Part shown: in pieces, positions 366-50,840 of the stretch | Numbering within the stretch: position 1 is the first letter of the stretch | How the letters are laid out: the number at the start of each line of letters is the position of its first letter | DNA from: Bhargavaea beijingensis | Lineage (GTDB): Bacteria > Bacillota > Bacilli > Bacillales_A > Planococcaceae | DNA length: 50,840 nucleotides | Reading direction: 5' to 3' | Assembly (NCBI RefSeq): GCF_900101985.1 | Contig: NZ_FNAR01000018.1 | Coordinates: forward strand, 1 to 50,840 | The notes under the pieces: generated by a model | Seen by the model: the letters and a program-made list of their open reading frames with translations, nothing else | The model's database searches: none | What the model was told of the DNA's origin: nothing | Program-made: the position numbers and the translations under genes

Positions 366-438
366 GAGTGTTAAGAAAGGACGCCTGAGTGTTAAGAAAA
401 GCCCCTTGAGTGTTAAGCAAACCCGCACGAGTGTTAAG
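366..438. repeat. Four direct copies of GAGTGTTAAG at exact 21-bp pitch (array A)
   Basis: GAGTGTTAAG begins at 366, 387, 408 and 429. The ten bases are identical in all four copies. The eleven bases between copies vary, though they often start AAA or CAA. The array sits between the rrn terminator and the tsaE operon. The rest of this gap (439-592) holds a TTGCAA/TACAAT-like patch around 515-530 and the tsaE ribosome site; I see no convincing gene in it. Confidence 0.9.
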
Positions 439-592
439 ACGCAGCGCCCCAACCATAATCCCTCTCTCCCGCCGGAAAATCCTCCGCTGCTCGATGTTCC
501 TGCTCCGCTGTTTTTGCAAAACACTACAATTTACCGGCTTTATCCTTTAAACTTGGGAAAGCAAAGGCTACAGAAGATGGAGTGACCAGATC

Positions 593-1045
593 ATGAATCA
601 TACAATCGATGTCCAGTCACAGGCAGAGACCGCCAGGCTGGCCGAGAAATTGGCTTCTTTGCTTGAAGGCGGAGAGGTGATTACGCTGGAAGGGGACCTC
701 GGGGCGGGGAAGACGACCTTTACCCAAGCGCTGGCAAAAGGGCTTGGCATCAAACGGACTGTCAGCAGCCCGACGTTCACCATCCTGAAGCAGTACGAAG
801 GCCGGCTGCCGCTGAACCATTTCGATGTGTACCGGCTGGCGGACAGCGGGGAGGACCTTGGCTGGGATGAACTTTTTTACGGGAACGCGGTCAGCGTCGT
901 GGAATGGGCACAGTATATCGAAGAAGAACTGCCCGAGGAGCGGCTGGACATTCAAATCCGGCGACTTGATGAGGAAGGCCGGCGGTTTTCGTTTGTCCCG
1001 CACGGCCTCCGTTATGAATCGGTGATGAAGGAGCTTATGCGATGA
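593..1045 (+). CDS. tsaE: tRNA threonylcarbamoyladenosine biosynthesis ATPase TsaE
   Basis: TsaE is the small cytoplasmic ATPase of the TsaB-TsaD-TsaE complex that makes t6A at position 37 of ANN-decoding tRNAs. The 150-residue product has the family length. A P-loop, GDLGAGKTTFTQ, lies at about residues 36-47, and SSPTF and ILKQYEGRLPLNHFDVYRL are typical family blocks. A GGAG about ten bases upstream supports the ATG at 593. The stop overlaps the tsaB start by four bases (ATGA), so translation is probably coupled. The order tsaE-tsaB-rimI-tsaD matches B. subtilis ydiB-ydiC-ydiD-gcp; thiL, which precedes it there, is replaced here by an rRNA operon. Confidence 0.95.
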   Translation: MNHTIDVQSQAETARLAEKLASLLEGGEVITLEGDLGAGKTTFTQALAKGLGIKRTVSSPTFTILKQYEGRLPLNHFDVYRLADSGEDLGWDELFYGNAVSVVEWAQYIEEELPEERLDIQIRRLDEEGRRFSFVPHGLRYESVMKELMR

Positions 1046-1752
1046 TCTGGCTTGGATTGGATACGGCGAATGCGCCCTTGTCGGTTGCCCTCGTCAGGGA
1101 CGGGGAGCTGCTTGCGGAATTGAATTCGGCCATGGGGCTGAACCATTCGGAAGGTGCGATGCCTGCCGTGGAGCAACTGCTGAAGAGAGCCGGCCTCCGC
1201 CCGGCTGATATCGATGCCATTGCGGTTTCTGAAGGGCCCGGTTCTTATACGGGTGTCCGGATTGGCGTGACAATCGCAAAGACCCTTGCATGGACGCTGG
1301 ACAAGCCGCTTGTCGGTGTATCGAGCTTGCGTGTGCTCGCCTCGAACATTTTCACTTATGGTGTCACGATCTGTCCCCTGATTGATGCAAGGAGGGGCAA
1401 TGTATATGCCGGGCTTTACCGGAGAAGACATGAAGACGGCACGCTCGACTGCCTTCTGGAAGACCGTCACATGGCGTTGTCCGATCTTCTCGGCCAACTA
1501 AAGAAAGAAGGCAATCCGGTCGTCTTCGTAGGTGAAGGTGCCAGAAAAAATGAAGAGGCTTTGAAACAAGCGCTCGGGGAGCTCGGCAGGCGCGCGCACT
1601 TTACCCAAGACATCCCGAGGGCTTCCCTGCTCATCACTGAAGCCCAGAAGGCGGAGCCTGAAGCCGTTCATGCCTTTGCTCCCGAATACCGCCGAATCAC
1701 CGAGGCCGAGGCCAACTGGCAGAAGGCGAACAGGGAGGCCGGGGAGAAATGA
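1042..1752 (+). CDS. tsaB: tRNA threonylcarbamoyladenosine biosynthesis protein TsaB
   Basis: TsaB is the ASKHA-fold, catalytically inactive partner of TsaD and a scaffold for the t6A synthase. The 236-residue protein starts LGLDTANAPLSVAL and contains SEGPGSYTGVRIG at about residues 71-83, the usual TsaB signature. It lacks the HxxxH metal motif of TsaD, as expected. It overlaps tsaE and rimI by four bases at each side, so the four genes form a tightly coupled operon. Confidence 0.95.
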   Translation: MIWLGLDTANAPLSVALVRDGELLAELNSAMGLNHSEGAMPAVEQLLKRAGLRPADIDAIAVSEGPGSYTGVRIGVTIAKTLAWTLDKPLVGVSSLRVLASNIFTYGVTICPLIDARRGNVYAGLYRRRHEDGTLDCLLEDRHMALSDLLGQLKKEGNPVVFVGEGARKNEEALKQALGELGRRAHFTQDIPRASLLITEAQKAEPEAVHAFAPEYRRITEAEANWQKANREAGEK

Positions 1753-2222
1753 GCGGCAGCACCTCACCGGTCATCGGTTTCCGGCAAATGCAGATCATGG
1801 ATGTGCCGGCGGTCTACCGGGTGGAGACGGATGCGTTCAGCTCGCCATGGACCATGGAAGCATTCGAGCAGGAAATGTTGCAGAATGAGTATGCGTATTA
1901 CCTGCTTGCCCTGGACGGTGAGGAGATTGTCGGGTATTGCGGCGCCTGGCTGATCCTCGATGAATGCCATATCACCAACGTCGCTGTGCTGACGGCTTAC
2001 CGGGGACACGGGATCGGCGAGGCTCTGATGCGGGAAGTGATGAGGCGCACAGCCGGCAAAGGCGCACGCGTGATGACGCTTGAAGTGCGGGTATCCAATG
2101 ATCCGGCACTCGGGCTCTACCGCAAACTGGGCTTTAAAGAGGGCGGCATCCGCCGCAGGTATTATACGGACAATGGCGAAGATGCCCTTGTCATGTGGAC
2201 GGAGCTGAATGAAGATGAATGA
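1749..2222 (+). CDS. rimI: Ribosomal protein S18 alanine N-acetyltransferase RimI
   Basis: This is a GNAT-fold acetyltransferase of 157 residues. The acetyl-CoA-binding region [17 protein letters not shown] follows the family pattern (Q/R)xxGxG/A, and [24 protein letters not shown] is the C-terminal RimI block. The family acetylates the N-terminal alanine of ribosomal protein S18; in Bacillales this copy sits between tsaB and tsaD. The ATG at 1749 overlaps the tsaB stop. Its 3' end overlaps tsaD by 14 bases if the first tsaD ATG is used. Confidence 0.92.
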
Positions 2223-3237
2223 TATCCATATTCTCGGCATCGAGACGAGTTGTGACGAGACGGCGGCATCGGTCGTGAAAAACGGCCGCGAGATCCTTTC
2301 GAATGTCGTCGCATCGCAAATCGAGAGCCAGAAACGGTTCGGCGGCGTCGTGCCGGAAGTGGCGTCCCGTCTCCATGTCGAGCAGATTACACTCGTGATT
2401 GAAGAAGCGATGGAGCAGGCGGGCCTCCGGCCGGAAGATCTGGATGCGGTTGCCGTGACGGAAGGGCCGGGGCTTGTCGGAGCGCTTCTGATCGGTGTCA
2501 ATGCCGCAAAGGCGTTTGCGTTTGCACATGGGCTGCCGCTTATCGGGGTCCATCATATCGCCGGCCATGTGTATGCCAACCGGCTGGACGGCGGGATGGA
2601 GTTTCCCCTTGTGGCCCTGATCATTTCCGGCGGGCATACAGAACTGGTTTATATGGAGCGTGATGGCCAATTCGAGCTGATCGGCGAAACGCGGGATGAC
2701 GCAGCGGGAGAGGCGTACGACAAAGTCGCCCGCGTGCTTGGCCTGCCTTATCCGGGCGGCCCGCATATCGACCGGCTTGCGCATGAAGCGGAAGTTGCCG
2801 TCGAGTTCCCGCGTGCGCGTCTTGAGGAAGGTTCGTATGACTTCAGCTTCAGCGGGCTCAAGTCGGCGGTCATCAACCACGTCCACAATGCCCGGCAGAA
2901 GGGGCAGGAGGTCGGCACCGCAAGTGTGGCTGCCGGCTTCCAGGAAAGCGTCATCGACGTCGTCGTCGAGAAGACGGTCCGCGCAGCCAAAGAAAAAGGC
3001 GTTCGCCAGGTTATTGCGGCTGGCGGCGTATCGGCCAACAAGGGGCTTCGCGCAGCACTGGGGGAGGCATTGGAGAAACAAGGGATCCGTTTTTCCGTCC
3101 CGCCGCTTCATTTGTGCACGGATAATGCCGCGATGATTGCGGCTGCCGGCACCTCGATGTTCGAGGCCGGCATCCGGAGCGACATGTCGTTGAACGGCCG
3201 GCCGGGGATGGAATTGCTGTCCTGGTCGGCGGAATAA
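2209..3237 (+). CDS. tsaD: tRNA N6-adenosine threonylcarbamoyltransferase TsaD
   Basis: TsaD transfers the threonylcarbamoyl group from threonylcarbamoyl-AMP to A37 of tRNA. The 342-residue protein has the ASKHA N-terminus [10 protein letters not shown], the metal-binding HHIAGH at residues 115-120 (the HxxxH pair is H116 and H120), SGGHTELV and the late [12 protein letters not shown] and CTDNAAMIA blocks. ATG codons at 2209 and 2215 are both possible; the second gives [10 protein letters not shown], which fits homologues slightly better. It is the last gene of the t6A operon and is followed by a strong terminator. Confidence 0.96.
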
Positions 3238-3248
3238 ATCAAGAGAAA

Positions 3249-3283
3249 TGGAGAGTCCGGTCTGCCGGACTCTCCTTCTTTTC
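3249..3283 (+). terminator. Terminator of the t6A operon
   Basis: GAGAGTCCGG (3251-3260) and CCGGACTCTC (3265-3274) form a perfect ten-base-pair stem with a TCTG loop, followed by CTTCTTTTC. It lies just after the tsaD stop. Confidence 0.88.
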
Positions 3284-3335
3284 GCCAGAAAGCGTCAGGT
3301 TCTGTCAAGAGGGAACATTTGTACTTATGCACATT

Positions 3336-3495
3336 TGTTGATAACTTGTTGATAAGTGTGTGATTTCCCTGTTAGTTATCCGCTGTTATTCACAGTTCGG
3401 TGTGTAAAACTCCGAAAAAAGCTGTGGACGAAGTGGGTAACTCTGTGAATATCCCGATATACCGGCATTTTCGCTGTTTATAAATCTGTGGAAAT
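3336..3495. promoter_or_regulatory. Cluster of DnaA-box-like 9-mers between tsaD and the ABC-F gene
   Basis: Against the consensus TTATCCACA I see TTATTCACA at 3386-3394 (one mismatch), two TTATCAACA on the minus strand (3336-3344 and 3347-3355, eleven bases apart, one mismatch each), and ATATTCACA on the minus strand (3444-3452, two mismatches). Weaker matches are TTATCCGCT (3376-3384) and, on the minus strand, TCGTCCACA (3423-3431) and ATTTCCACA (3487-3495). The region is AT-rich and not coding. From memory, the gcp-ydiF gap of B. subtilis is one of its stable non-origin DnaA-binding regions, and this is the same gap. Confidence 0.72.
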
Positions 3496-3518
3496 TCCAA
3501 GAGATCTGTTGGAAATAA

Positions 3519-3548
3519 TAACTGCCGCAGAAAAGGATCTGCGGCAGT
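3519..3548 (-). terminator. Terminator of the ABC-F gene
   Basis: ACTGCCGCAG (3521-3530) pairs with CTGCGGCAGT (3539-3548). Read on the minus strand the stem is followed by TATTATTT. It lies about 20 bases after the stop of the ABC-F gene. Confidence 0.85.
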
Positions 3549-3567
3549 GCCTACGGATAGGCTGAGT

Positions 3568-5505
3568 TTATGCTTCGTCCAGTTCCATCTGCAGTTCCAG
3601 CCAGCGTTCCATGCACGCTTCATGCATGACAGATGCCCTGTCGAGCTGTTCCTGGATTTCCTGAAGCTTCACATGGTCGTCTGCATGTTCAGGTTGGTTC
3701 AGCTCTTCTTCCAGGCGCTTGGTCTCCGCTTCAAGCGCCGCCATTTCTTCCTCGGCCTCGGCAAGTGCACGGCGGATGCGGCGTTCTTCGCGCTGCGCTT
3801 CCCGGTCCAGCGGAGCATTGGCCTTTTTGGCCGGAGCGGCAGGGCGGACCGCCTGCTGTTCGTTGGCGATTTCCGCCAGCAGCTCTTCCTGTTCCCGCTT
3901 TTTCTCGACATAGTAATCGTAATCTCCGAGGAACTCTTCTGCGCCTTCGGGAGACAGCTCGATCACCTTTGTCGCGATCCGGTTGATGAAATACCGGTCG
4001 TGGGAGACGAAGAGGAGCGTACCCGGATAGTCGAGCAGCGCGTTCTCGAGAACTTCCTTGCTGTCAAGATCCAGGTGGTTCGTCGGCTCGTCGAGGACGA
4101 GCGTGTTGGATTTCTCGAGCACCAGCTTTGCGAGCGCCAGGCGCGCCTTCTCACCGCCTGAAAGCGTGCTGACAGGCTTTGTCACGTCGTCTCCGGTAAA
4201 GAGGAAGCGGCCGAGCAGGGTGCGGATATCCTTTTCGTTCATGGTCGGCCAGTCGTTCCAGATTTCCTCGAGGACAGTGCCGTTCCCGGTGAGCTCCGCC
4301 TGTTCCTGGTCGTAGAAGCCGAATTCGACATTCGTGCCGAGGCCGATCGTTCCGGCAAGCTTCGGGAGCCGGCCGGTCAGCGTTTTCAGCAATGTGGATT
4401 TGCCGACGCCGTTCGGGCCGATAAAGGCGATGCGGTCTTCCCGGTAGACCCGGAAATCAAGCTGCCTGGAGACGGGTTCCTCCCGGTAGCCGATCGCGAG
4501 GTCACGGACGGCCATGACATCATTGCCGCTTTTCCTGCCGATATGGAAAGTGAACGCAGCTGACTTTTCGTCACCCTCAGGTGCGTCCATCCAGTCGGTT
4601 TTCTCAAGCACTTTCCTCCGGCTCTGCGCCATCTTCGTCGTGGACGCCCGGGCGATGTTTTTCTGGATGAACGCCTCGAGTTTCGCTTTTTCGTCCATCT
4701 GCTTCTCATACATCTTCCGGTCGCGCTCATAGTTTTTGGCTTTCTGCTCGAGGTAGGCGCTGTAATTGCCGATGTACTTCGCCACTTTCCGCCGGGAGAC
4801 CTCGTAGACGATCGTCACGACCTGGTCGAGGAAATAGCGGTCGTGGGAGACGATGAGAATCGCCCCTTCATAGCCCTGCAGATATTTCTCGAGCCAGCTG
4901 AGCGTTTCGATGTCCAGGTGGTTGGTCGGCTCATCGAGGATGAGGAGGCCGGGCTTCGACAGCAGGAGCCGGGCGAGCGCGAGCCGTGTCCGCTGGCCGC
5001 CGGAAAGGGTCCGGATCGGTTTGTTGTAGTCTTCCGTATAAAACCGCATGCCGTGAAGGACGGAGCGGGTCTCGGATTCGTACTGGTAGCCGCCGGTTTC
5101 AGCGAAGCGGTGCTGCAGCGCGTCGTAGGCATCCATCACTTTCTTGTACTCGGTTTCGTCGCCGTAGACGGACGGGTCGGCCATTTTCTGCTCGAGCGAG
5201 CGGAGTTCCCTTTCCATGGCGAAAAGCGGTTCGAACACGGTCATCATTTCTTCCCAGATCGTGCGCTCCGAATCAAGCCCGCTATGCTGGTCAAGATAGC
5301 CGATCCGCACGTCTTTCGGGATGATGATGTCGCCCTCGTCGCGGCCCATCTCGCCGGTGATGATCTTAAGCAGCGTCGATTTGCCGGCGCCGTTTCGGCC
5401 GACGAGCGCCACACGGTCTCTGTGCTGCACTTCCAATTTAACGCCGGAGAGGATTTCCTCCCCGGCGAATGATTTCGTCACGTTGTTCACTTGAAGGACG
5501 ATCAT
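3568..5505 (-). CDS. ABC-F family ribosome-associated ATPase (YdiF-like)
   Basis: This is a soluble tandem ABC ATPase of 645 residues without membrane segments, as in ABC-F translation factors that act at the ribosomal E site. ABC1 has Walker A GRNGAGKST at residues 36-44 and signature LSGGQRTRLALARLL. A basic linker (around 250-310, KNYERDRKMYEKQ and QSRRKVLEK) follows. ABC2 has GPNGVGKST, LSGGEKARLALAKLV and LVLDEPTNHLDL. The end is a charged coiled-coil tail (about 540-645). It is convergent with tsaD in the place of B. subtilis ydiF. Nothing distinguishes a housekeeping role from antibiotic protection; I favour housekeeping because of the conserved position. Confidence 0.92.
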   Translation of the reverse strand: MIVLQVNNVTKSFAGEEILSGVKLEVQHRDRVALVGRNGAGKSTLLKIITGEMGRDEGDIIIPKDVRIGYLDQHSGLDSERTIWEEMMTVFEPLFAMERELRSLEQKMADPSVYGDETEYKKVMDAYDALQHRFAETGGYQYESETRSVLHGMRFYTEDYNKPIRTLSGGQRTRLALARLLLSKPGLLILDEPTNHLDIETLSWLEKYLQGYEGAILIVSHDRYFLDQVVTIVYEVSRRKVAKYIGNYSAYLEQKAKNYERDRKMYEKQMDEKAKLEAFIQKNIARASTTKMAQSRRKVLEKTDWMDAPEGDEKSAAFTFHIGRKSGNDVMAVRDLAIGYREEPVSRQLDFRVYREDRIAFIGPNGVGKSTLLKTLTGRLPKLAGTIGLGTNVEFGFYDQEQAELTGNGTVLEEIWNDWPTMNEKDIRTLLGRFLFTGDDVTKPVSTLSGGEKARLALAKLVLEKSNTLVLDEPTNHLDLDSKEVLENALLDYPGTLLFVSHDRYFINRIATKVIELSPEGAEEFLGDYDYYVEKKREQEELLAEIANEQQAVRPAAPAKKANAPLDREAQREERRIRRALAEAEEEMAALEAETKRLEEELNQPEHADDHVKLQEIQEQLDRASVMHEACMERWLELQMELDEA

Positions 5506-5636
5506 AGTCTACACCCCTATTCTTCTACAGTTTACTGGATAGGGGGCAGCCCGCGCAACGGCGCGACTTTACAGGAATCACGGGCTCAGGTAAGATGGTA
5601 ACGGCTCACGCACGGACGGTTTTGATGGAGGCTATC

Positions 5637-6293
5637 ATGAAAGATGAAATTCAACGGGTCCCGCAGGCGACCTCAAAGCGTCTGCCGCTGTACTACCGAT
5701 TTATCCAGAAGCTTGCCAACGAAGGGAAGGAGCGCGTCTCTTCCCAGGAACTGAGCGAGGCGATGAAGATCGACTCCGCCACGATCCGGAGGGATTTCTC
5801 CTATTTCGGAGCGCTCGGGAAGAAGGGCTACGGCTACGATGTCCGCCGGCTGCTGGAATTCTTCCGGAAGACGCTCGATCAGGATGAGGCGGTCAATATC
5901 GCGCTTGTAGGCGTCGGAAGCCTCGGCAATGCATTTCTGAAATATAATTTCGAGAAAAACCATAACACCCGGATTGTGGTGGCATTCGATCCCAATGCGG
6001 ACGAGGAAGGGACGATGTCAAACGGCATCCCGATCTTCCTGCCCGAGCGGCTGGAGGAAAAGCTGCCGGGCTTCGGCGTCCAGATGGCTGTCCTTACCGT
6101 CCCGGCACGCGCCGCACAGGACATGACCGACCGCCTGGCAGCGCTCGGCGTCAAAGGCATCCTGAACTTCGCCCCGGTACGCCTGAACGTTCCCGACGGA
6201 ATCCGTGTCCACTCGATCGATCTGTCTGTCGAGATGCAGGCGCTTATCTACGCCATCCGGAACGACGAAAAGAATTCACAAACATCCGTTTGA
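5637..6293 (+). CDS. rex: Redox-sensing transcriptional repressor Rex
   Basis: Rex senses the NADH/NAD+ ratio and represses fermentative and respiratory genes. The product has 218 residues from the ATG at 5637, chosen because GGAGG (5627-5631) precedes it by five bases and homologues begin close to [14 protein letters not shown]; a longer frame from 5595 has no such support. The winged helix covers about 1-80 ([21 protein letters not shown]), then a Rossmann fold with GVGSLG at 92-97. A domain-swapped C-terminal helix ([17 protein letters not shown]) ends the protein. It sits between ydiF and tatA as in B. subtilis. Confidence 0.95.
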
Positions 6294-6354
6294 TTAATTG
6301 GAGTTTGGTGTCATTTTGGTGTAGAATTGAACTATTAACAAGGGAGGTGCCGTC

Positions 6355-6546: not shown

Positions 6547-6572
6547 TGGCGCCCCGTTAGGACGTTATCGTT

Positions 6573-28240: not shown

Positions 28241-28386
28241 GTTTCGTCATTCACTTCAATGGTTTCGTCATTCGCTTGCCGGGTTTCGTCATTGGAGGCG
28301 CCGGCCCGGGCGAATGCCGAAACCGGAGGGACGAATGACGAGACCAAGCCCGCGAATGCCGAAACCAAGCCCACAAATGACGAAAC
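28241..28386. repeat. Orientation-switching 21-bp-pitch motif array (array B)
   Basis: GTTTCGTCATT(C) starts at 28241, 28262 and 28283 in the forward direction. Its reverse complement (GAATGNCGAAAC-like) starts at 28312, 28333, 28354 and 28375; the last two copies vary by a base or so. Pitch is exactly 21 bases within each half. Bases between copies vary but are GC-rich and often CAAGCCC. The two halves can pair as a large cruciform or RNA hairpin around 28295-28311. The array fills the gap between the DUF2339 and SDR genes; no gene lies in this gap. Confidence 0.9.
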
Positions 28387-29181: not shown

Positions 29182-29241
29182 ATGTCGATGGAAATGCAGG
29201 TCAGTGGCTGTCCGAAAGCGGATAGTCATTGCAGCATTTAG

Positions 29242-29351
29242 AAAACGGCACGGACGCCGGGAGACACCTGCGGGAAAAGCCGGGCCCGAGATCCGCTTCA
29301 CGCGGAGCTCGAACCCCGGCCCGCGGTGAGCGACCAGAATCCGTGCCGTTT
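29242..29351. repeat. 110-bp structured repeat-like element with AAACGGCACGGA terminal inverted repeats
   Basis: AAACGGCACGGA (29243-29254) and TCCGTGCCGTTT (29340-29351) are perfect inverted ends. Inside, CCGGGAGACACCTGCGGG, CCCGAGATCCGC/GCGGAGCTCG and CCCGGCCCGCGGTGAGCGA resemble the common structured interspersed element of Bacillaceae with GAGAC..CTGCGGGA and CGCGGAAAGCGA blocks. It lies between convergent genes and may also serve as a two-way terminator. The resemblance is from memory, not from a search. Confidence 0.6.
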
Positions 29352-29375
29352 GCTATTCACTTATTTGCGCAATGC

Positions 29376-35131: not shown

Positions 35132-35239
35132 GACCTTATCAAGAGCCGGGGGAGGAATCTGGTCCTACGATCCCGCAGCAACCGTTACAGATGTAACAAG
35201 GTGCTCATTCCAGCAAGCGCATGCTTGAAAGATGAGGGT
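35132..35239 (+). promoter_or_regulatory. SAM-I (S-box) riboswitch aptamer
   Basis: The stretch contains the S-box blocks in order: CTTATCAAGAG (35135), GGGGGAGGAATCTGG, CAGCAACC, AAGGTGCT, CCAGCAAGC and GAAAGATGAGG. ACCTTATC at 35133-35140 and GATGAGGGT at 35231-35239 close helix P1. It binds S-adenosylmethionine and normally switches transcription off when SAM is plentiful. It leads the monooxygenase-symporter operon. Confidence 0.95.
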
Positions 35240-44089: not shown

Positions 44090-44123
44090 AAAGCCGCCCG
44101 GCAGAAAAGTCTGCGGGCGGCTT
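44090..44123. terminator. Bidirectional terminator-like hairpin between gltS2 and the GTPase gene
   Basis: AAGCCGCCCG (44091-44100) and GGGCGGCTT (44115-44123) form a long stem extended by GCAG/CTGC. The T-tracts on both sides are weak (CTTGTAT on plus, TTTCC on minus). Confidence 0.65.
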
Positions 44124-44142
44124 CTTGTATGGACAACCCGAT

Positions 44143-46071
44143 CTATAGGAGGTGCATCGCCGCTTCCGCTTCATGCCAGGGAACGGAATAGCCTTTGCCC
44201 CTTGCGCAGAAGACCGATGATGAGGAATAGTCGGGGTCGGCCTCTTTGTCATAGCCGATCCGCGCCTTGACTTGCTCCGGATTGTGGCAAGCTTCGTAGC
44301 CGCCGGAGCGAAGGGAAATGGCGCCTTTTCCGTTGGTGAAAGAAGCGAATATAGACGGATAGTCCATGAATGTGGAAACCGGGACACGCGCATCGATCCG
44401 CGTGGCTTCTCCGTCGGTATCCGGGTTCCCGAACTGTCCGTGCGCTTTCCGGATGTCGTTCAGTACACGGCCCATCAGTTCGGTCGCCACTTTGATCTTC
44501 ACATCGTACACCGGCTCGAGCAGGATCGTTTCCGCTTTCTCAAGGCCTTGCCGGAGGGCGCGGAGGGACGCTTCCCTGAAATCTCCGCCGGATGTGTATT
44601 CATTGTGCGCGCGTCCGGTGATCAGGGTGATTTCCAGGTCCGTGAGCGGTGATCCCGTCAGCAGGCCGCGGTGCGGTTTCCCGGTGAGCACCTGACCGAC
44701 GAGGTTTTGGTAGCCTGGGGCAAGTTCATTCGGATGGCAGTCGCTCTTGAATGTAATGCCCGATCCGCATTCTGCAGGGCTGATCGCCAGATGGACTTCC
44801 GCATAGTGGCGGAGCGGTTCAAAATGACCGTAGCCCCTGACCGCGGAGCGGACCGTTTCTTTATAGAGGATCGACGGTTCTCCGAATGTGATGATCTCTC
44901 GAAATCGGTCGGAAACGACTTCTTTCAACACGTCCAACTGGATGAGGCCCATGACATGGACGCGAATCTCCCTGGCATGCTCTTCCCATGTGACGGAGAG
45001 TGAAGGATCTTCCGCGTCCAGCTGCATGAAATGGGCAAGCATATCTTTCGGATGGATGGAGTCGCCAAAATGGACGGCAGCCGACAGGGAAGGGGTGAGC
45101 GAAAAGGCGGCCCGTCCTGTTTCGGCTCCGAGCGGCTCGCCGGCCTTGATGCCGGAAAGCCCCATGACCGCCACCAGTTCGCCCGTGTTCGCCGTATCCT
45201 GGACGGTGTACTTGTGTCCGCTGTATTTCCGGATCTGCGTGACTTTCCGGGGTTCACCTGCAATCCGGACTTCATCCCGGACTGACAGGCGGCCGCCGGT
45301 CATCTTCAGGAAGGTGATTCGCTGGCCGCCTTCGTCATGGCGGATTTTATAGACCCGGGCTGCAAATGGCCCGTCCTCATCCAGGCGGTTCCCGCCGGAA
45401 AGCCGGTCCAGCCATGTGAAGAATTCGGTGACGCCGACGTCCTTTAGCGCCGAGCCGCTGCCGGCGGGGAAGATCCGCCCTGATGCCGTCATACGGCGCA
45501 TGGCCCGGATCCACATTTCCTCATCGAAGCCTTCCTCGAAGTAATGTTCAAGAAGGGTTTCATCACGCTCCGCCATCCACTCGATGACATCAGGAGTCAG
45601 CCCGTCATCCAGGAGAACCGCATCTTCGGACAGGGATTTCCGGATCTCGCGCAGGGCAGCTTCCCGGTCCGCACCTTCCCGGTCGTTTTTGTTGATGAAG
45701 ATGAATGTCGGGACACGGTTTTTCCGGAGCAGGTCCCATACTGTCTCGGTATGGCCCTCGACGCCATCCGCCGCACTGACCACGAGGATGGCCGCATCCA
45801 TCACACGGATCGCCCGCTCCATTTCCGGGGAGAAATCGATGTGGCCCGGCGTGTCGATCAGCGTATACTCAGTCCCGTTGTGGCGGAACACGGCCTGGTC
45901 GGCGAAGACGGTGATTCCCCGGTTTTTCTCGATTCCATGGCCGTCAAGAAAGGCATCTTTGTGGTCGACCCGCCCCCGGGTACGGATTGCTTTCATATGA
46001 AAGAGCAGCTGCTCGGAGAAAGTCGTTTTTCCGGCATCCACATGGGCGAGGATGCCGATTGTTTTATACAT
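44143..46071 (-). CDS. TetM/EF-G-like translational GTPase
   Basis: This 642-residue translational GTPase resembles tetracycline ribosomal-protection proteins and EF-G. The G domain carries G1 AHVDAGKTT, G3 DTPGHID and G4 NKND. The effector region GIEKNRGITVFADQ follows the TetM pattern (ERQRGITIQ). Domain IV and V blocks (LLEPVYDVKIKVATELMG, FTNGKG) are present. The loop that in TetM carries YYSPVSTPADF reads HNEYTSGGDF here, so the drug-displacing tip is not conserved and resistance cannot be assumed. AAGGA six bases before the ATG at 46071 fixes the start. It probably acts in translation; its exact role is unknown. Confidence 0.83.
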   Translation of the reverse strand: MYKTIGILAHVDAGKTTFSEQLLFHMKAIRTRGRVDHKDAFLDGHGIEKNRGITVFADQAVFRHNGTEYTLIDTPGHIDFSPEMERAIRVMDAAILVVSAADGVEGHTETVWDLLRKNRVPTFIFINKNDREGADREAALREIRKSLSEDAVLLDDGLTPDVIEWMAERDETLLEHYFEEGFDEEMWIRAMRRMTASGRIFPAGSGSALKDVGVTEFFTWLDRLSGGNRLDEDGPFAARVYKIRHDEGGQRITFLKMTGGRLSVRDEVRIAGEPRKVTQIRKYSGHKYTVQDTANTGELVAVMGLSGIKAGEPLGAETGRAAFSLTPSLSAAVHFGDSIHPKDMLAHFMQLDAEDPSLSVTWEEHAREIRVHVMGLIQLDVLKEVVSDRFREIITFGEPSILYKETVRSAVRGYGHFEPLRHYAEVHLAISPAECGSGITFKSDCHPNELAPGYQNLVGQVLTGKPHRGLLTGSPLTDLEITLITGRAHNEYTSGGDFREASLRALRQGLEKAETILLEPVYDVKIKVATELMGRVLNDIRKAHGQFGNPDTDGEATRIDARVPVSTFMDYPSIFASFTNGKGAISLRSGGYEACHNPEQVKARIGYDKEADPDYSSSSVFCARGKGYSVPWHEAEAAMHLL

Positions 46072-46123
46072 ATCCATTCCTTCTTCCTGGCCGGATTCTG
46101 CTCAATAGTATAGCAGACTCTCC

Positions 46124-47203
46124 TCAGGCTTGCGGTCCGCCTTCCATTCGGATGCGGAATGCATCCCCGCCTTTGACATGCCGGAGAACCGGCAGGTCGT
46201 CTCCGATTACCCGCCCGATGACATTCACTTTTTCATCCCCGGGCAGATCTCGCTTGGTGATCTGAAGCTCTCCCTCATACCGTCCGTACCGGTAATTGTC
46301 GATGGTGACGGAACCGGCAGGCCGCGCCGCCGTGTTGGCGGGTTCGACCGGCCGCTTCCCGGCATTGCCGTACAGCCGGGACTCTGCGGAGCGGATCACA
46401 TCACGCGCCGCATCCTGCCGGTTTGTATGCTCCGGAACGGGCAGGGCATCGGCTGCATCCGGGAAAGCCGGTACGGCATGGATCAGGTAGACACCCTCCG
46501 CATGGCTGCTGAACTGTTCAAGCGAGCGTTCACTTAATGAGGGATCGCCGATATAGATGTGGTCCGTACACCCGCTGTTCAGGAGATCGAGATAAGCGGA
46601 AAAGGACGTGCGTTCCCTGTGGTCTTCCAGTGTGGGAAGCCCTTTGAAGAGGGGGCCCCGCCGTTCACCGTCGCCGGGAACGAATGCCATGACTTTCAGC
46701 CCTTCGCTCTTCAGCCAACGGTTTCGCTCCCGGAAATCCTCCAGACCAAGCCCGGTTTCAGGTCTCGGATAGAAATTGTGCCATGCTTCGGCCGAAGAAA
46801 GGCGGAGCCCGCAATTCTTCAGCCTTCGGAGGCTTTCCCCGGTGAGTGTGCTGGCATTCAGGACGACCGTCATCCGCTGTGAAAGGGCGGCTGTTTCTAC
46901 TTCACTGATGCCATAGTCCACCCGTAGCCCGGTCACTCCCCAGTCAAGCAGGCGGTCGGCCGTCCTGAAAGTGAGGCCGAGATGGCCGAGCGAGGCAGGG
47001 GAGATGTCTGCGGTCAGTTCCATTCCATAGGTTGCGGCGAGTTTGCCAAGTGCCCGGAGCCGGCCGGCATGTTGTTCAGGGTCCTCTTCCGGAATATGCA
47101 GGGAAGTGAAGATTCCGCGGAAACCGGCCGCCCGCATCTTTCGGATGTACGCTTCCTGTTTTTCGGAATTGGTGTCGTTCAGGTACACAGAGATTCCTAA
47201 CAT
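46124..47203 (-). CDS. mupG: 6-phospho-N-acetylmuramidase MupG (DUF871)
   Basis: The 359-residue protein starts MLGISVYLNDTNSEKQEAYI and continues GFRGIFTSLHIPEED, a TIM-barrel of the DUF871/MupG family. MupG cleaves MurNAc-6P-GlcNAc taken up by MurP into MurNAc-6P and GlcNAc. The characteristic LRVDYGIS, NASTL and WHNFYPRPETGL segments are present, and a small C-terminal beta domain (GRYEGELQI; KVNVIGRVI) follows. It is the last gene of the murQ-murP-mupG unit on the minus strand; a hairpin with a T-rich tract separates it from murP. The setting matches the S. aureus mup cluster. Confidence 0.9.
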   Translation of the reverse strand: MLGISVYLNDTNSEKQEAYIRKMRAAGFRGIFTSLHIPEEDPEQHAGRLRALGKLAATYGMELTADISPASLGHLGLTFRTADRLLDWGVTGLRVDYGISEVETAALSQRMTVVLNASTLTGESLRRLKNCGLRLSSAEAWHNFYPRPETGLGLEDFRERNRWLKSEGLKVMAFVPGDGERRGPLFKGLPTLEDHRERTSFSAYLDLLNSGCTDHIYIGDPSLSERSLEQFSSHAEGVYLIHAVPAFPDAADALPVPEHTNRQDAARDVIRSAESRLYGNAGKRPVEPANTAARPAGSVTIDNYRYGRYEGELQITKRDLPGDEKVNVIGRVIGDDLPVLRHVKGGDAFRIRMEGGPQA

Positions 47204-47235
47204 AAACAGCTTCCTTTCTATATGGAACTCAAGAA

Positions 47236-47284
47236 AACAAAAGCAGGGGGAGAGGCCCGATGGCGGACGTTCTCCCCCTGCTTC
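47236..47284 (-). terminator. Intercistronic terminator between murP and mupG
   Basis: AAGCAGGGGGAGA (47241-47253) pairs over 13 bases with TCTCCCCCTGCTT (47271-47283). On the minus strand it is followed by TTGTTTTCTTG. It lies between the murP stop and the mupG start, with no promoter that I can see after it. Confidence 0.78.
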
Positions 47285-47299
47285 TATGGGTGGATCGGA

Positions 47300-48667
47300 T
47301 CAGAAGCCTTCGTCCATTTCCTTCCTGAAGCCGAAGAAATACGTGAAGATGAATCCGGCTGTATAGGTGATGACAAGTCCGAAGAAATACATCAGGTACT
47401 TGTTTTCCACGATCAGCGGAATGAGGGACAGCCCCGACACCCCGATGCCGCTCGCCGCCGTATGCATGATTGCCTGGTAAGCGCCACCGACGGCAGCACC
47501 CATGCAGGCAGTGATGAACGGCCGGCCGAGCGGGAGCGTCACCCCGTACAAGAGCGGTTCCCCGATGCCGAGGAAGCCTGCCGGAAGGCCGCCCTTGATG
47601 ACGTTCTTCAGGCGCTGGTTCCGGGACTTCACGAAGATGGCGATTGATGCGCCGACCTGGCCGGCACCTGCCATTGCCAGGATCGGGAGCAGGGACGTCG
47701 CATTCATGGAGTTGATCAGCTCCATATGGATCGGAGTGAGTCCGTGGTGAAGGCCAAGCATGACGAGCGGCAGGAAGAATCCGGCGAGCAGTCCGCCCGC
47801 AACGGGACCGCCGACTTCCAGAATGGCGTGGATGCCCCTTGTGATGCCGTCAGACAAGACGCCTGCGACCGGCATGACCGCCACGATCGTCAGCAGCCCG
47901 ACGGATAAAACCGTAAGGAGCGGCGTAACGATGATGTCCACGGCGTTCGGGATGAACCGTCTATAAAAGCGCTCAAAGACGACCATCAGCCAGGCGGCGA
48001 ACATGGCGCCAAACAGACCGCCGCGGCCGGGAAGCAAGTTTTCGCCGAACAGGACAATATCCGCGAGTCCGGGATGAATGGTGATGATTCCCGCAATCGC
48101 CCCGAGCACCGGCGTTCCCCCGAATTCTTTTGCGGTGTTCCAGCCGACGACAATCGCCAGGTAACCGAAGATGCTTCCGCCGAGGAGCGTGAGGATCTGA
48201 ATCCAGGTTTCAGTTTCTTCTACTCCTGTGTTCTTCGCAAAACCGGCAATCCCGTTGATGATCCCGGAAGCGACCAGCCCGGGAATGAGGGGGATGAAGA
48301 TGCTTCCGATTTTTCTGAGCAAGTTTTTGACAGGCGTGTTATTTTTCTTTTTCAGTTCCGCCTTTTTCAGGCTGACCGCATCATCTTCACCGGCATCTAC
48401 GGTTTCTCCCATCCGTATGCCGGTCATTTTCGTGATGTGGTCGGACACTTTGTTCACGGTGCCCGGGCCGACGACGACCTGAAGCGTTTCGTCCTCGATG
48501 ACCCCCATGACGCCGTCCACACTTTTCAGTGCCTGGATATCAGCCTTGCTGTCATCTTTCAGATCCAGCCGGACACGGGTCATACAGTGGGTGAAGGAAC
48601 GGATGTTGCCGCCGCCGCCGATATGGTCCAGGATCCCCCTTGCGAGCTTTTCTTCTTTTTTCATCAT
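47300..48667 (-). CDS. murP: PTS MurNAc-specific transporter subunit IIBC MurP
   Basis: MurP is the PTS IIBC permease that imports and phosphorylates MurNAc or MurNAc-GlcNAc. The 455-residue product has an N-terminal IIB domain with the phospho-cysteine C28 (SFTHCMTRVRL), a linker, and then the IIC domain with about ten hydrophobic segments. Blocks such as GGTPVLGAIAGIITIHPGL and GIGEPLLYGVTLPLGRPF belong to the glucose-sucrose IIC family. No IIA domain is fused, so it borrows one from elsewhere. A GGAGGGG site precedes ATG 48667 (or 48664). It is 12 bases downstream of murQ. Confidence 0.92.
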   Translation of the reverse strand: MMKKEEKLARGILDHIGGGGNIRSFTHCMTRVRLDLKDDSKADIQALKSVDGVMGVIEDETLQVVVGPGTVNKVSDHITKMTGIRMGETVDAGEDDAVSLKKAELKKKNNTPVKNLLRKIGSIFIPLIPGLVASGIINGIAGFAKNTGVEETETWIQILTLLGGSIFGYLAIVVGWNTAKEFGGTPVLGAIAGIITIHPGLADIVLFGENLLPGRGGLFGAMFAAWLMVVFERFYRRFIPNAVDIIVTPLLTVLSVGLLTIVAVMPVAGVLSDGITRGIHAILEVGGPVAGGLLAGFFLPLVMLGLHHGLTPIHMELINSMNATSLLPILAMAGAGQVGASIAIFVKSRNQRLKNVIKGGLPAGFLGIGEPLLYGVTLPLGRPFITACMGAAVGGAYQAIMHTAASGIGVSGLSLIPLIVENKYLMYFFGLVITYTAGFIFTYFFGFRKEMDEGF

Positions 48668-48679
48668 TTCCCCTCCAGA

Positions 48680-49567
48680 TCATCTCTGAGTTTCTCTGAT
48701 AAACCCCTTCGCTTCTTTCAAGCGCGCATTCGCTTCCTCGAGCGGACAGCCGAGAAGAAGCATCACGATGGCCGGCTTGACCTGTTCACCGGCTTTTTCG
48801 TAGGCTTCCTCCGCCGTTTCAAAGTCCACGCCGGCTGCTTCCATGATGATCTGTTTGGCGCGCCTGACCAGCTTTTCATTGGTCGGCTGCACGTCGACCA
48901 TCAGGTTGCCGTAGACTTTACCGATTCCTGTCATGGCGATGGTGGAAATCATGTTCAGCACCAGCTTCTGGGCAGTTCCGGCTTTCAGGCGGGTCGAGCC
49001 GGTGATGACTTCCGGCCCGGTCACGACTTCGATGGCCACGTCGGCGATGCGTCCGATTTCGGAGCCTTCGTTGTTGCTGAGGGCCACGGTTTTCGCACCC
49101 GATTCCTTTGCCCGGCCAAGCACCCCGATGACGTAAGGGGTGCGGCCGCTTGCGGCGATTCCGACGACGACATCATCCGGGCCGACAGACAGGGAAGCGA
49201 TGTCATCGGCGCCCTGTTCCGCATCGTCCTCGGCTCCTTCGATCGCCGTCGTGATCGCTTGTTCACCGCCTGCGATCAGACCGCGGACCATGCCGGGTTC
49301 CACGCCGAATGTCGGCGGGCATTCGGACGCATCGAGAATGCCGAGCCTGCCGCTTGTGCCGGCACCGGCATAAATCAGGCGGCCGCCTTTTTGAAAGGCT
49401 TGGATCACAAGTCTGACAGCGTTTTCAATTGAACCGATCTCTTTCCGGATGGCTTCCGGAATCCCGGCATCCTCTTCGACCATGAGCAGCAGGCGCTCCC
49501 TGACCGGCAGCGTATCGATGTTCATGCTCTTCGGATTCCTTGCCTCTGTCGTGAGTTTTTCCAGCAT
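48680..49567 (-). CDS. murQ: N-acetylmuramic acid 6-phosphate etherase MurQ
   Basis: MurQ cleaves the lactyl ether of MurNAc-6P, yielding GlcNAc-6P and lactate. The 295-residue protein has the SIS domain motifs AGAGTSGRLGILDASECPPT and GIAASGRTPYVIGVL, and the conserved TEARNP near the N-terminus. AGGTGA precedes ATG 49567, which I prefer to the in-frame ATG at 49600; the latter lies in the predicted operator and has no ribosome site. It is the first gene of a unit with its own promoter. Confidence 0.95.
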   Translation of the reverse strand: MLEKLTTEARNPKSMNIDTLPVRERLLLMVEEDAGIPEAIRKEIGSIENAVRLVIQAFQKGGRLIYAGAGTSGRLGILDASECPPTFGVEPGMVRGLIAGGEQAITTAIEGAEDDAEQGADDIASLSVGPDDVVVGIAASGRTPYVIGVLGRAKESGAKTVALSNNEGSEIGRIADVAIEVVTGPEVITGSTRLKAGTAQKLVLNMISTIAMTGIGKVYGNLMVDVQPTNEKLVRRAKQIIMEAAGVDFETAEEAYEKAGEQVKPAIVMLLLGCPLEEANARLKEAKGFIRETQR

Positions 49568-49583
49568 GTCTTCACCTACTGTT

Positions 49584-49634
49584 ATGAAATTATGTTTCAT
49601 GAATTCATTCTATTAAAAAGAAATTAATTGTCAA
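49584..49634 (-). promoter_or_regulatory. murQ promoter with candidate MurR operator
   Basis: On the minus strand TTGACA (49634-49629), a 16-base spacer and TAGAAT (49612-49607) give a SigA promoter. The inverted repeat ATGAAA-CATAA-TTTCAT (plus-strand coordinates 49584-49600) covers the predicted start point and resembles the TGAAA..TTTCA sites bound by RpiR-family repressors, so it is the candidate MurR operator. Confidence 0.72.
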
Positions 49635-49663
49635 TATGTAGAATATTTTTTCTTTGGATGTCA

Positions 49664-49705
49664 AAAAAATCCCGGCAGGAAAAGCCTGATGGCCAATGCC
49701 TAGCC
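49664..49705 (-). terminator. murR terminator-like hairpin
   Basis: On the minus strand CAGG-CTTTT-CCTG is followed by CCGGGATTTTTTTG. An outer CCGG/CCGG step may extend it. The T run is good but the stem is short. Confidence 0.6.
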
Positions 49706-49710
49706 GGTGA

Positions 49711-50559
49711 TTATCTGCGGAGGCGGAGGACTTCGTTCCGGGCCTCATGATACTGATCGATGACGGATTCGCCGATTGCGTGAAAAAGGCTGAGGTAAAG
49801 GGCGTCGATGAGGGTCAGCTGGGTCATCCTTGAGGAGATGCTGCCGATCCGGTGGTCCTGTTCTACGACCGGGGTGCACAGCCGGATATCCGCTTCCCTG
49901 TAGAGCGGAGATTTGTCCAGGTTGGTGATGGCGATGACCGTGGCCCCTTTGGATTTTGCGAAGCGCGCAAGCTCCAGCACGTCTTTGGTTTTTCCGGAGT
50001 TGCTGATCGCAAAAAACACGGAATGCTTGTCCAGGTAGGGGATCGCCGACAGCATGAAGTGGAAGTCATGATGGCTCTGGCATGGATATCCGAGCTTTGT
50101 GAATTTATAATAGGCGTCTGTTGCGGCCGTAGCCGATCCGCCCACGCCGTAGAACAGGAGCCGGTCCGCGTCCTTCAGAACACTGACGGCTTTTTCGAAT
50201 TCCTTGCGGTCGAGGGAGGAGGGGATCGCCTCGATGGCCGACTTGTTGACGTGGGTGACTTTCCGGAACAGATCGTACGGCGCGTCCTGATGATGGAGAA
50301 TATCGAAATCCGTCAGATTCATGCCGGTAAGCGTCAGGTCCTTGACGAGTTCCAGCTTAAAGGACTTGAAGCTGCCGATGCCGATCGATTTGCAGAAGCG
50401 GACGACACTCGATTCGCTGACGCCGCTGTTTTTGGACAGATCCCGAGTCGTCATGTTGGGCACCAGGTCGGGATGCTTCAGGATGTATTCCCCGATGGCC
50501 CGTTCGGCGCCGGACAGGCTCGGGAGGCTTTGTTCAATGCGGTTAAGTAGTGAACTCAT
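49711..50559 (-). CDS. murR: MurR/RpiR family transcriptional regulator
   Basis: This is an RpiR-type regulator of 282 residues. The N-terminal helix-turn-helix domain (about 1-80) contains MTTRDLSKNSGVSESSVVRF and then CKSIGIGSFKSFKLEL. A SIS sugar-phosphate-binding domain follows (about 120-260) with LLFYGVGGSATAATDAYYKF and ISNSGKTKDVLELA. By location and family it should sense MurNAc-6P and repress murQ-murP-mupG. It is transcribed separately upstream, with about 140 bases carrying the promoter and operator in between. Confidence 0.9.
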   Translation of the reverse strand: MSSLLNRIEQSLPSLSGAERAIGEYILKHPDLVPNMTTRDLSKNSGVSESSVVRFCKSIGIGSFKSFKLELVKDLTLTGMNLTDFDILHHQDAPYDLFRKVTHVNKSAIEAIPSSLDRKEFEKAVSVLKDADRLLFYGVGGSATAATDAYYKFTKLGYPCQSHHDFHFMLSAIPYLDKHSVFFAISNSGKTKDVLELARFAKSKGATVIAITNLDKSPLYREADIRLCTPVVEQDHRIGSISSRMTQLTLIDALYLSLFHAIGESVIDQYHEARNEVLRLRR

Positions 50560-50689
50560 GGTCGGTACCTTCCTTGTTCTGGACTGGCCCGCCGGCCGGA
50601 TATCGCGGGCGGGCGTGATTGCGTCCAGTATATCAGACAGCGGGCGACCCGCCTCTGTTAAAATGAATGAGGAAGCGGAGAGCCCCCAT

Positions 50690-50840
50690 GTTCGCGTGCG
50701 AATCCCAAAAGTTTGCGTACGAAAAAAGGGGTGCCTCCCGTGTTCGCGTACGAATCCCGGAAGTTTGCGTACGAAAAAAGGGGTGCCTCCCGTGTTTGCG
50801 TACGAATCCCGGAAGTTTGTGTACGAAAAAAGGGGTGCCT
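50690..50840. repeat. 52-bp tandem array with GTTTGCGTACGAA motifs at 21/31-bp pitch (array C)
   Basis: G-T-T-T/C-G-C-G-T-A-C-G-A-A copies start at about 50690, 50711, 50742, 50763, 50794 and 50815, so spacing alternates 21 and 31 bases (a 52-bp unit). Between them lie ATCCCGGAA-type bases and an AAAAGGGGTGCCTCCCG segment. The array runs to the window end and may continue. It lies upstream of murR; a GC-rich segment (50560-50689) separates it from that gene and contains no gene that I can see. Confidence 0.88.

Follow-up and report, generated by a model that had tools for sequence, protein, structure and literature searches.

Phased 21-bp repeat arrays in Bhargavaea beijingensis and their linkage to genes for NERD-domain proteins

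The short-motif arrays of Bhargavaea beijingensis and the genes for proteins with a nuclease-related domain (NERD) point to a previously undescribed gene-plus-repeat system. What was observed directly is the linkage of arrays to NERD genes, different motifs at different paralogues, the co-variation of proteins and motifs, the match of dispersed arrays to NERD motifs of their own genome, the conservation of motifs beside free spacers, and the gain and loss of whole units. The arrays are probably phased binding sites of a sequence-specific NERD protein family. In the predicted mechanism, each NERD paralogue would read its own 10–14-bp motif, arrays of which would adjoin its gene, and further arrays of the same motif would be found between genes at a few to tens of other sites, for the most part where the neighbouring genes are convergent or codirectional. 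The protein would bind the motif, its copies stacking on the same side of the DNA at intervals of two helical turns (20–21 bp). Its nuclease domain may cut or nick near the motif, and repair between neighbouring units could then lead to gain or loss of units and perhaps to their spread.

Three phased arrays in the window

The window, a stretch of 50,840 nt, contains three arrays with a 21-bp pitch. These had been noticed in a preliminary description of the sequence and were confirmed (Table 1).

Table 1. Positions of the repeat arrays in the window
Feature	Position	Strand	Description
Array A	366..438	+	Four exact GAGTGTTAAG, 21-bp pitch
Array B, left arm	28241..28294	-	Three GAATGACGAAAC units read on the minus strand, 21-bp pitch
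Array B, centre	28295..28311	.	17 bp between the inverted arms, start-to-start 29 bp; recurrent length, free sequence
Array B, right arm	28312..28386	+	Four GAATGACGAAAC units, 21-bp pitch
Array C	50691..50827	+	Six TT(T/C)GCGTACGAA units at 21/31-bp pitch, truncated by the contig end

The units of array A start at 366, 387, 408 and 429 (spacings of 21, 21 and 21 bp), and the array is flanked by a 5S rRNA gene (185–300) with a terminator on one side and by a called gene (593–1045) on the other. In plus-strand letters, array B reads GTTTCGTCATT(C/G) at 28241, 28262 and 28283 and its reverse complement at 28312, 28333, 28354 and 28375; two of the seven units are exact, and five have one mismatch. 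Motif B may resemble the Spo0A box. An array is present at the same site in genomes G004 and G007 and absent from G003 and G006, and in the array-free genomes the two genes are aligned ∼60–80 bp apart. Array C, with units starting at 50691, 50712, 50743, 50764, 50795 and 50816 (spacings of 21, 31, 21, 31 and 21 bp), lies upstream of an RpiR-type regulator gene (49711–50559, minus strand). The spacers had been described as variable in all three arrays; this applies to arrays A and B but not to array C, because the whole 52-bp double unit of the latter is a 94% tandem repeat.

Two three-copy lag-21 arrays (A and B) were observed in the window, compared with none in 100 dinucleotide-preserving shuffles. 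Exact 10-mer pairs at lag 21 also numbered two, against a mean of 0.05 and a maximum of one in the same shuffles. No Rfam family matched at the arrays, only 5S rRNA and a SAM riboswitch reaching the threshold in the window.

Array families in the genome and its relatives

Motif A forms 14 phased pairs genome-wide (13 at 21 bp and one at 22 bp), motif B has 89 exact copies and motif C has 11 copies, with zero matches to the reversed-pattern control in each case. At least 10 motif families sharing the 21-bp pitch are present in the Bhargavaea genome. In a 660-kb sample, which consists of 35 stretches including the window and is array-enriched because the stretches were picked around A, B and C sites, 58 three-copy arrays were found at lag 21, and at none of the other lags between 12 and 89 did their number exceed five. 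The rule proposed for the three arrays (a conserved motif, a free spacer, a pitch of two helical turns and a location between genes) holds genome-wide and in relatives, with arrays of 2 to about 37 units, motifs of 10–14 bp and spacers of 7–11 bp. Called genes overlap 34 of the 40 three-copy arrays by <30%; the greater overlap of the other six may be a simple gene-caller artefact on period-21 sequence.

Among the intergenic arrays with known context in this genome, 12 of 32 lie in convergent, 18 in codirectional and 2 in divergent gaps, compared with 29, 114 and 44, respectively, of 187 gaps of ≥150 bp. In other Planococcaceae stretches, 11 of the 14 arrays are convergent.

Arrays with the shifted A motifs GAGTGTTAAGCAA or GAGTGTTACG occur in sister species; motif A differs between species and is largely uniform within each of them. 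The mean length of A arrays is 2.7 units in this genome (n = 13) and 4.3 units in G006 (n = 12; p = 7e-4). Where both flanks were called codirectional, all five A arrays of this genome point with the genes, whereas those of the sister species comprise two sense and four antisense arrays; array orientation was therefore dropped as a sign of RNA function. At two pairs of loci, an A array beside a gene in G006 is replaced, at the same side of the homologous gene in this genome, by an array of another family; the gene call is uncertain for the pair L267/L062, and for L278/L057 the neighbours on the far side are not the same.

Linkage of arrays to NERD genes

A strict array, defined as three copies at 20/21-bp pitch outside the NERD gene and within ±1.5 kb, was present at 18 of 30 NERD loci and in 12 of 185 unselected Planococcaceae windows of equal size (Fisher p = 5e-11). 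The 30 loci were those best placed among 66 matches to PF08378 from 10 genomes, 8 of which had been chosen since arrays were already seen there. Same-genome controls, which address this choice for 27 loci, gave arrays at 17 of 27 NERD loci and in 12 of 129 control windows (p = 8e-9). All NERD tests, including these, were devised after the link had been noticed, and there is dependence between rows with orthologues or species in common. At a looser threshold, arrays accompany all eight further NERD loci taken from the match list, flanking five of these on either side; L342 and L346, two of the eight, had lain near arrays already known. Among the 12 loci without a strict array, L311, L312, L313 and L339 encode shorter proteins (226–260 aa), L317 is broken, L315 sits where a contig ends, L338 has a loose match only, and L327 was missed by the strict detector, its C array having a 21/31 pitch; L316, L329, L331 and L340 lack a strict array without explanation. 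L320 and L337, the two NERD loci whose arrays have a pitch of 20 bp, group as sisters in the NERD tree.

A NERD profile search of this genome gave nine matches. Seven intact genes adjoin different families (B, C, D, E, F, G and H), the E-family gene also having a D-like array. One further gene lies at a contig start with a truncated array judged by eye, and one match is a relic with arrays on both flanks. Outside Planococcaceae, 10 NERD loci were read, drawn from nine other Bacilli families; strict 21-bp arrays accompany 5 of them, and repeats of 41 or 42 bp another 2. A restriction of the arrays to Planococcaceae was withdrawn after this finding; it had been suggested by unselected stretches of other families, which contained no arrays at lags 19–22, in 307 kb and in 398 kb. 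The suggestion that a multimeric protein binds the arrays has gained candidates in the array-linked NERD proteins.

Features of the NERD proteins

The NERD domain (PF08378) scored above the Pfam cut-off of 22.1 bits in all 10 proteins scanned. The proteins consist of an N-terminal nuclease-related domain with PD-(D/E)xK residues, a four-cysteine zinc ribbon and a variable C-terminal part. In 16 diverse NERDs, E35, D70, E83, K85, Q118, C221, C224 and C238 are invariant and C241 is nearly so. D70, E83 and K85 correspond to the catalytic D and ExK of the PD-(D/E)xK superfamily and are the presumed catalytic residues. The C-terminal part may be a helix-turn-helix; it gave no match in the PDB and only single weak matches in Pfam, and an AlphaFold2 model had a mean pLDDT of 33. 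No transposase model was found in the Pfam scan of the 10 proteins. PADLOC indicated a weak likeness of the NERD regions to PglW (E = 2.5e-4), and NCBIfam a likeness to MAD6 (E = 1.4e-4), far below the cut-off.

NERD proteins are widespread and almost unstudied, and the function of bacterial NERDs had, to the knowledge of the authors of the SmdA study, been unstudied before that work (PMC9040797, available text). SmdA of Staphylococcus is a NERD membrane protein without several of the conserved NERD residues; it has the NERD domain in common with the array-linked proteins and differs in that no repeat partner is mentioned in the available text (PMC9040797).

Specificity of NERD paralogues for motifs

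Paralogous NERDs go with different motifs, and related NERDs with related motifs. NERD identity correlated with motif similarity across 29 loci (Mantel r = 0.49, p = 1e-4), and the correlation was weak when close orthologues were left out (r = 0.20, p = 0.002, 21 loci). Of 18 dispersed arrays, 10 were matched best by a NERD motif of their own genome (permutation p = 4e-4), whereas the other eight were better fitted by the NERD motif of another genome, only part of the NERD loci of each genome having been read for this test.

Arrays B and C of the window have their proposed partner genes elsewhere in this genome. The proposed partner of motif B is a 320-aa protein (G000:C41:184535-185497; L335:1411-2373), and that of motif C is a 371-aa protein (G000:C18:37822-38937; L327:1273-2388), whose gene has motif C 50 bp downstream. 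No intact NERD partner was found in this genome for families A, I, J and M; for A, only a broken NERD was found, which is related to the A-type NERD of a sister species. G006, where A arrays are longer, contains an intact NERD (L346) flanked by arrays of GAATGTTAAGCAA, one base different from its dispersed motif GAGTGTTAAGCAA; the contrast with the shorter A arrays here is in keeping with a loss of the A partner.

Constraint and turnover of array units

Orthologous B arrays differ at 64 of 741 motif sites and at 181 of 550 spacer sites; this, together with recurrent distances between arms, supports the proposal that motif and phase are under selection. The spacers (33%) diverge faster than the flanks (18%). 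The centre distance of inverted B arms is 29 bp in 15 of 21 pairs, 17–19 bp in 5 and 21 bp in 1, the 17–19-bp class being shorter than 29 bp by about one helical turn. In the same orientation, 114 of 125 B distances are 21 bp and 7 are 42 bp. Whole 21-bp units have been gained or lost between species. Several B arrays sit at identical sites in several species and are therefore old, and no recent array move was seen.

Alternative explanations

Array-bound NERDs may serve the host as boundary, roadblock or chromosome-structuring sites between transcription units, the nuclease fold being structural or rarely active, which we regard as possible though less likely than not. The constraint on motif and spacing, the share of convergent gaps (12/32 versus 29/187 gaps, and 11/14 in other Planococcaceae stretches) and the window B site, with an array between the genes in three genomes and none in two, favour such a role. 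However, convergent gaps are also those that best tolerate neutral or selfish repeats, at least 10 motif families in one genome, and arrays that are present or absent between species, are unusual for one host task, and the invariant catalytic-type residues suggest that nuclease activity may have been retained. The arrays could also be selfish repeats, the NERD protein cutting at or near its motif and repair expanding and homogenising the arrays and copying them to new sites. This possibility, which we consider somewhat doubtful, is consistent with genes that have their own repeats next to them, in many cases on either side, with gains and losses of 21-bp units, with spacers that diverge faster than flanks, with a motif A that is species-specific yet largely uniform within species, and with the two pairs of loci at which G006 and this genome carry arrays of different families; against it, several B arrays are too widely shared at the same sites to be young, and viral contigs yielded no A or B motif pairs, nor did viral contigs, plasmids or phages yield any relative of the B-partner protein. 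The same absences led us to reject a phage or plasmid origin. It is likewise conceivable, if rather doubtful, that the NERD paralogues, each with its own motif, constitute a new class of genomic drive element that writes and spreads phased arrays across the chromosome by cleavage and repair; each genome would then carry several independent nuclease–motif pairs, which would diverge, exchange sites and eventually be lost, orphan arrays staying behind.

A defence-type system, in which arrays mark or titrate a nuclease acting on foreign DNA, appears unlikely. NERD domains are listed for the Mokosh type I and Nhi-like defence systems (PMC10952713, available text), and there is the weak similarity to PglW and MAD6, but no PADLOC or NCBIfam model reached its cut-off or a strong score in the scanned proteins, and the 20 flanking proteins scanned revealed no defence neighbourhood. 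These 20 proteins are functionally mixed apart from three NERDs, and a regulon was rejected on this basis. Neutral minisatellites without a partner, linked to NERD genes through shared array-rich neighbourhoods, would gain and lose whole units by slippage between repeats; they are quite improbable in view of spacers that drift while motif and length hold, the same-genome linkage and the protein–motif co-variation. That the arrays act in RNA, as transcript hairpins or 3′-end structures, is very improbable: folding is strong on both strands for nine B arrays (z −5.8 to −12.8) and the codirectional A arrays here point with the genes, but only F exceeds z = −3 among 13 non-B arrays folded, mirrored spacers in B show no complementarity (although mirrored B units resemble each other slightly more than shuffled ones do, fraction 0.017), and the sister-species A arrays have mixed orientation. 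An RNA guide reading the motif was rejected, since each of the 89 exact B copies belongs to an array or is adjacent to one, and none is solitary (by eye, from coordinates). The heptad-repeat peptides considered in the preliminary description can hardly be upheld; 21 bp equal seven codons and 6 of 40 arrays overlap called open frames, but one frame of the B unit contains a stop (GAA TGA), the reading frame is lost at spacings of 22 and 24 bp, and a single array can contain arms of opposite orientation.

Comparison with known repeat systems

Taken as binding sites of NERD proteins, the arrays are best read as having a REP/RAYT-like organisation with an unrelated enzyme and repeat. REP, BIME and REPIN repeats pair with RAYT transposases (PMC2817692 and PMC3116915, available text). 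The likeness consists in a gene that has short repeats of its own on its flanks (here 18 of 30 NERD loci, several on both sides), in cognate repeats dispersed between genes in several families per genome, and in repeat–protein co-evolution, which here is weak without close orthologues and is accompanied by the own-genome match of 10 of 18 arrays. In contrast, RAYTs are IS200/IS605-type transposases, whereas the partner here is a NERD with a zinc ribbon, and REPs are palindromic, whereas the motifs here are non-palindromic, 10–14 bp long and set at a fixed 20–21-bp pitch. In a hairpin test, arrays A, D and H folded no better than shuffles, and B folded via its inverted arms. The NERD–array system would be a second, enzymatically unrelated case of gene-plus-dispersed-repeat logic beside REP/RAYT, and it would account for a large class of intergenic repeats in Bacilli that have lacked an explanation. 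Dozens of NERD paralogues gain a predicted DNA target, which makes binding and cleavage directly testable, and the motif–paralogue pairs form a natural set for studying how a DNA-reading protein changes specificity.

Plasmid iterons and ParR/ParB-type centromere arrays also have a short motif repeated at approximately two helical turns and bound by a protein encoded alongside. They are confined to one locus of a replicon, whereas the present arrays occupy tens of sites on the chromosome and go with a protein of nuclease type. The DNA uptake sequences of Neisseriaceae occur as dialects (PMC3630211, available text). Like the present motifs, uptake sequences are short, genome-wide uniform and lineage-specific in version; they are not known to form phased arrays or to flank a gene of their own. 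The pneumococcal BOX, RUP and SPRITE elements are likewise Gram-positive repeat families with slow present movement, and they differ in that neither a partner protein nor a 21-bp pitch is mentioned in the available text (PMC3049150).

No description of a NERD–array pairing was found among the titles and abstract openings of the matches listed from the open-access literature, and an earlier description is possible. CRISPR arrays have cas genes, repeats of ∼23–50 bp and longer spacers, unlike the 10–14-bp repeats and 7–11-bp spacers described here. The Pfam scans of the flanking and NERD proteins contained no Cas family, and PADLOC gave one weak Cas10a match, to L078 (E = 0.0066).

Phased arrays in the genome of B. 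beijingensis

The three arrays of the window, A (366-438), B (28241-28386) and C (50690-50840), were all recovered as the preliminary description had reported them. The 2.99-Mb genome contains 89 exact copies of motif B, 14 phased pairs of motif A and 11 copies of motif C, whereas the reversed-pattern control yielded none for each motif. In a 660-kb sample consisting of 35 stretches of this genome picked around A, B and C sites, 144 pairs matching at 11 of 12 bases were found at lag 21; the counts at the remaining lags between 8 and 41 ranged from 0 to 14. The same pitch was found in families absent from the preliminary description, namely D (GAGTGCTTCGAAA), E (GAGTGGTTACC), F (GAAAGATCAATAA), G (CGCGCATAGA), H (GAATGTCTCAATA) and others. 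The assembly is probably interrupted at C arrays, because the contig of the window (at 50840) and contig C38 (at its start, L073:9-103) both terminate within such arrays.

A typical B array consists of two arms, GTTTCGTCATTC units followed by reverse-complement units, with a unit of 21 bp. The distances between same-orientation B neighbours (n = 125) were 21 bp in 114 cases, 42 bp in seven, 48 bp in two, and 22 and 24 bp in one case each; in a set of 24 A and D arrays, 78 of 80 counted spacings were 21 bp. The centres between B arms (n = 21) measured 29 bp in 15 arrays, 17-19 bp in five and 21 bp in one, and clustered weakly modulo 10.5 bp (P = 0.014, with the 29-bp class entered once and an arbitrary uniform null). 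The profile of 171 B units, picked at no more than two mismatches, contains the strong blocks AATG and GAAA.

According to gene calls made by a simple purpose-written hexamer caller, 34 of 40 three-copy arrays overlap called genes by <30%. These 34 arrays lie between convergent (12), codirectional (18), divergent (2) or unknown (2) neighbours, compared with 29 convergent, 114 codirectional and 44 divergent pairs among 187 gaps of at least 150 bp. In unselected stretches of other Planococcaceae genomes, 14 arrays have a called gene on each side, and 11 of these lie in convergent gaps.

Association of NERD genes with the arrays

Three of the ten proteins flanking arrays of non-B families (one of the ten also adjoins a B array) are nuclease-related domain (NERD) proteins, each with a different motif family. 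A NERD search of ten genomes, eight of which had been picked for arrays already seen in them, gave 66 matches, 30 of which were extracted as loci. A strict detector identified an array of 20- or 21-bp pitch, lying beyond the NERD gene itself, in 18 of the 30 loci, compared with 12 of 185 equal-size windows from Planococcaceae stretches sampled without selection (p = 5e-11). The association held in a same-genome control that left out the B. beijingensis genome, with proportions of 17/27 and 12/129, respectively (p = 8e-9). Strict arrays were absent from four loci encoding short NERD proteins of 226-260 aa (L311, L312, L313 and L339), a broken NERD locus (L317), a locus at a contig end (L315), and L316, L329, L331, L338 and L340; the detector also misses L327, whose C array has a 21/31 pitch. 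All of eight additional loci taken from the NERD matches, two of which (L342 and L346) lie near arrays known beforehand, contain arrays at a looser setting, five of them on both sides.

A profile of 16 NERDs gave nine matches in the B. beijingensis genome.

NERD genes of B. beijingensis and their adjacent arrays
NERD gene	Locus	Adjacent arrays
B	L335	B arrays on both sides
C	L327	C array 50 bp downstream
D	L078	D cluster
E	L342, L079	E arrays and D-like array
F	L341	between F arrays
G	L083	G array(s)
H	L088	H array(s)
Eighth	L315	contig start; two ATATGG-like units, by eye
Ninth (relic)	L349 (G000:C38:63700-65800)	GAGTGACGATTC-like arrays on both sides

The relic retains only the zinc ribbon and C-terminal part, with stops. 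Its nearest relative among the NERDs compared (50% over 155 residues) is that of locus L346 in the related Bhargavaea genome G006, which sits between GAATGTTAAGCAA arrays. No intact NERD partner of motif A was found in the B. beijingensis genome, where A arrays have on average fewer units than those of G006 (2.7, n = 13, versus 4.3, n = 12; p = 7e-4).

NERD identity and motif similarity are correlated across 29 loci (r = 0.49, p = 1e-4), with L342 entered by its D-like array and not its E array; after removal of close orthologues, the correlation was r = 0.20 (21 loci, p = 0.002). Of 18 dispersed arrays, 10 were matched best by a NERD motif from their own genome (permutation p = 4e-4), and three of the remaining eight by the NERD motif of a sister-species orthologue.

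In the 16-NERD alignment, G31, G34, E35, D70, E83, K85, G89, P115 and Q118 are invariant, as are cysteines 221, 224 and 238, with 241 nearly so. NERD was the sole domain supported by the Pfam scan. Profile positions ~218-260 gave weak PDB matches to zinc ribbons of ribosomal and other proteins (best E = 0.0016). The last 70 residues may, judged by eye, form a helix-turn-helix; this region obtained no PDB support and no Pfam support (one member, E = 0.03). An AlphaFold2 model from two sequences had a mean pLDDT of 33. Searches of viral contigs, plasmids and phages yielded no relative of the B-partner NERD.

Distribution and evolution of the arrays

Six of eight genomes in the genus contain exact B pairs, which are absent from all 253 genomes examined from 18 other genera of the family. 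The 37 stretches from named genomes with an exact B pair comprise 30 from Bhargavaea and seven from Planctomycetota or Verrucomicrobiota MAGs (L147, L155, L159, L160, L163, L170 and L174); by our own estimate, ~0.002 hits are expected by chance, and some of these MAG stretches carry the pair inside 7-bp repeats such as GAATGACGAATGACGAAACC.

Forty unselected stretches of other Planococcaceae genomes (767 kb; two are from the same genus) contain three-copy arrays with lineage-specific motifs, 12 of them at lag 21 and four at lag 20. No three-copy array at lags 19 to 22 was found in 20 stretches from other families (307 kb) or in 20 further stretches from other Bacilli families (398 kb). This first suggested a Planococcaceae-specific trait, an idea that was dropped after NERD loci elsewhere showed arrays: ten such loci from nine other Bacilli families include five with strict 21-bp arrays, two with 41- or 42-bp repeats, one with a loose 21-bp array and two without an array. 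NERD profile matches (E < 1e-15, some partial) were obtained in 52 of 200 Bacilli genomes, including 17 of 17 Planococcaceae. A very long array of ~37 GAATACCCGCGGAAGCA units is present in genome G026 (L185:13982-14758), and no matching motif was found at the G026 NERD loci examined.

Comparison of orthologous B arrays between sister species shows differences of entire 21-bp units as well as some smaller gaps. In ten B-array alignments, 64 of 741 motif sites, 181 of 550 spacer sites and 163 of 900 flanking sites differ; the p value of 3e-28 overstates independence, because the alignments have some loci and related species in common. Spacer likeness is barely higher between adjacent units (0.40) than between different arms (0.34). 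At the window B site, arrays are present in the related genomes G004 and G007, whereas G003 and G006 contain no array and the two genes are close together; G007 carries two tandem B arrays ~270 bp apart (L236). The prevailing form of motif A is GAGTGTTAAGAAA in B. beijingensis and GAGTGTTAAGCAA in G006; in both G005 and G007 it is GAGTGTTACG.

Possible mechanism and relation to known systems

PD-(D/E)xK folds are usually nucleases. Each NERD would bind its own motif, and neighbouring NERDs would stack on one helical face, two turns apart; spacer sequence would be free and spacer length fixed. If the protein nicks or cuts near the motif and neighbouring units then anneal, both the exact gain or loss of units and the fast change of spacers would result. 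The host may profit from NERD-array pairs, as boundaries between genes or in defence, or the pairs may be selfish.

As far as described in the parts of PMC2817692 and PMC3116915 considered here, REP/RAYT systems combine a repeat-flanked gene, dispersed cognate repeats and co-evolution, and the NERD arrays resemble them in all three. Two features that define REP/RAYT, its class of transposase and its palindromic repeat, are absent; the NERD-array system therefore resembles REP/RAYT in its organisation without belonging to it. Regarding NERD itself, the portions considered of three papers state that its function in bacteria had never been studied to the authors' knowledge (PMC9040797), list it in two defence systems (PMC10952713) and name it among putative CRISPR auxiliary genes (PMC10910872); these portions do not mention phased arrays.

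The window also contains a SAM riboswitch (35133-35238; RF00162, 82.5 bits) and, downstream of an SDR gene, a ~155-bp MITE-like element unrelated to the arrays (29203-29358), which is dispersed in G004 and also in G007, where the matches listed include about twelve partial or complete copies at 82-91%.
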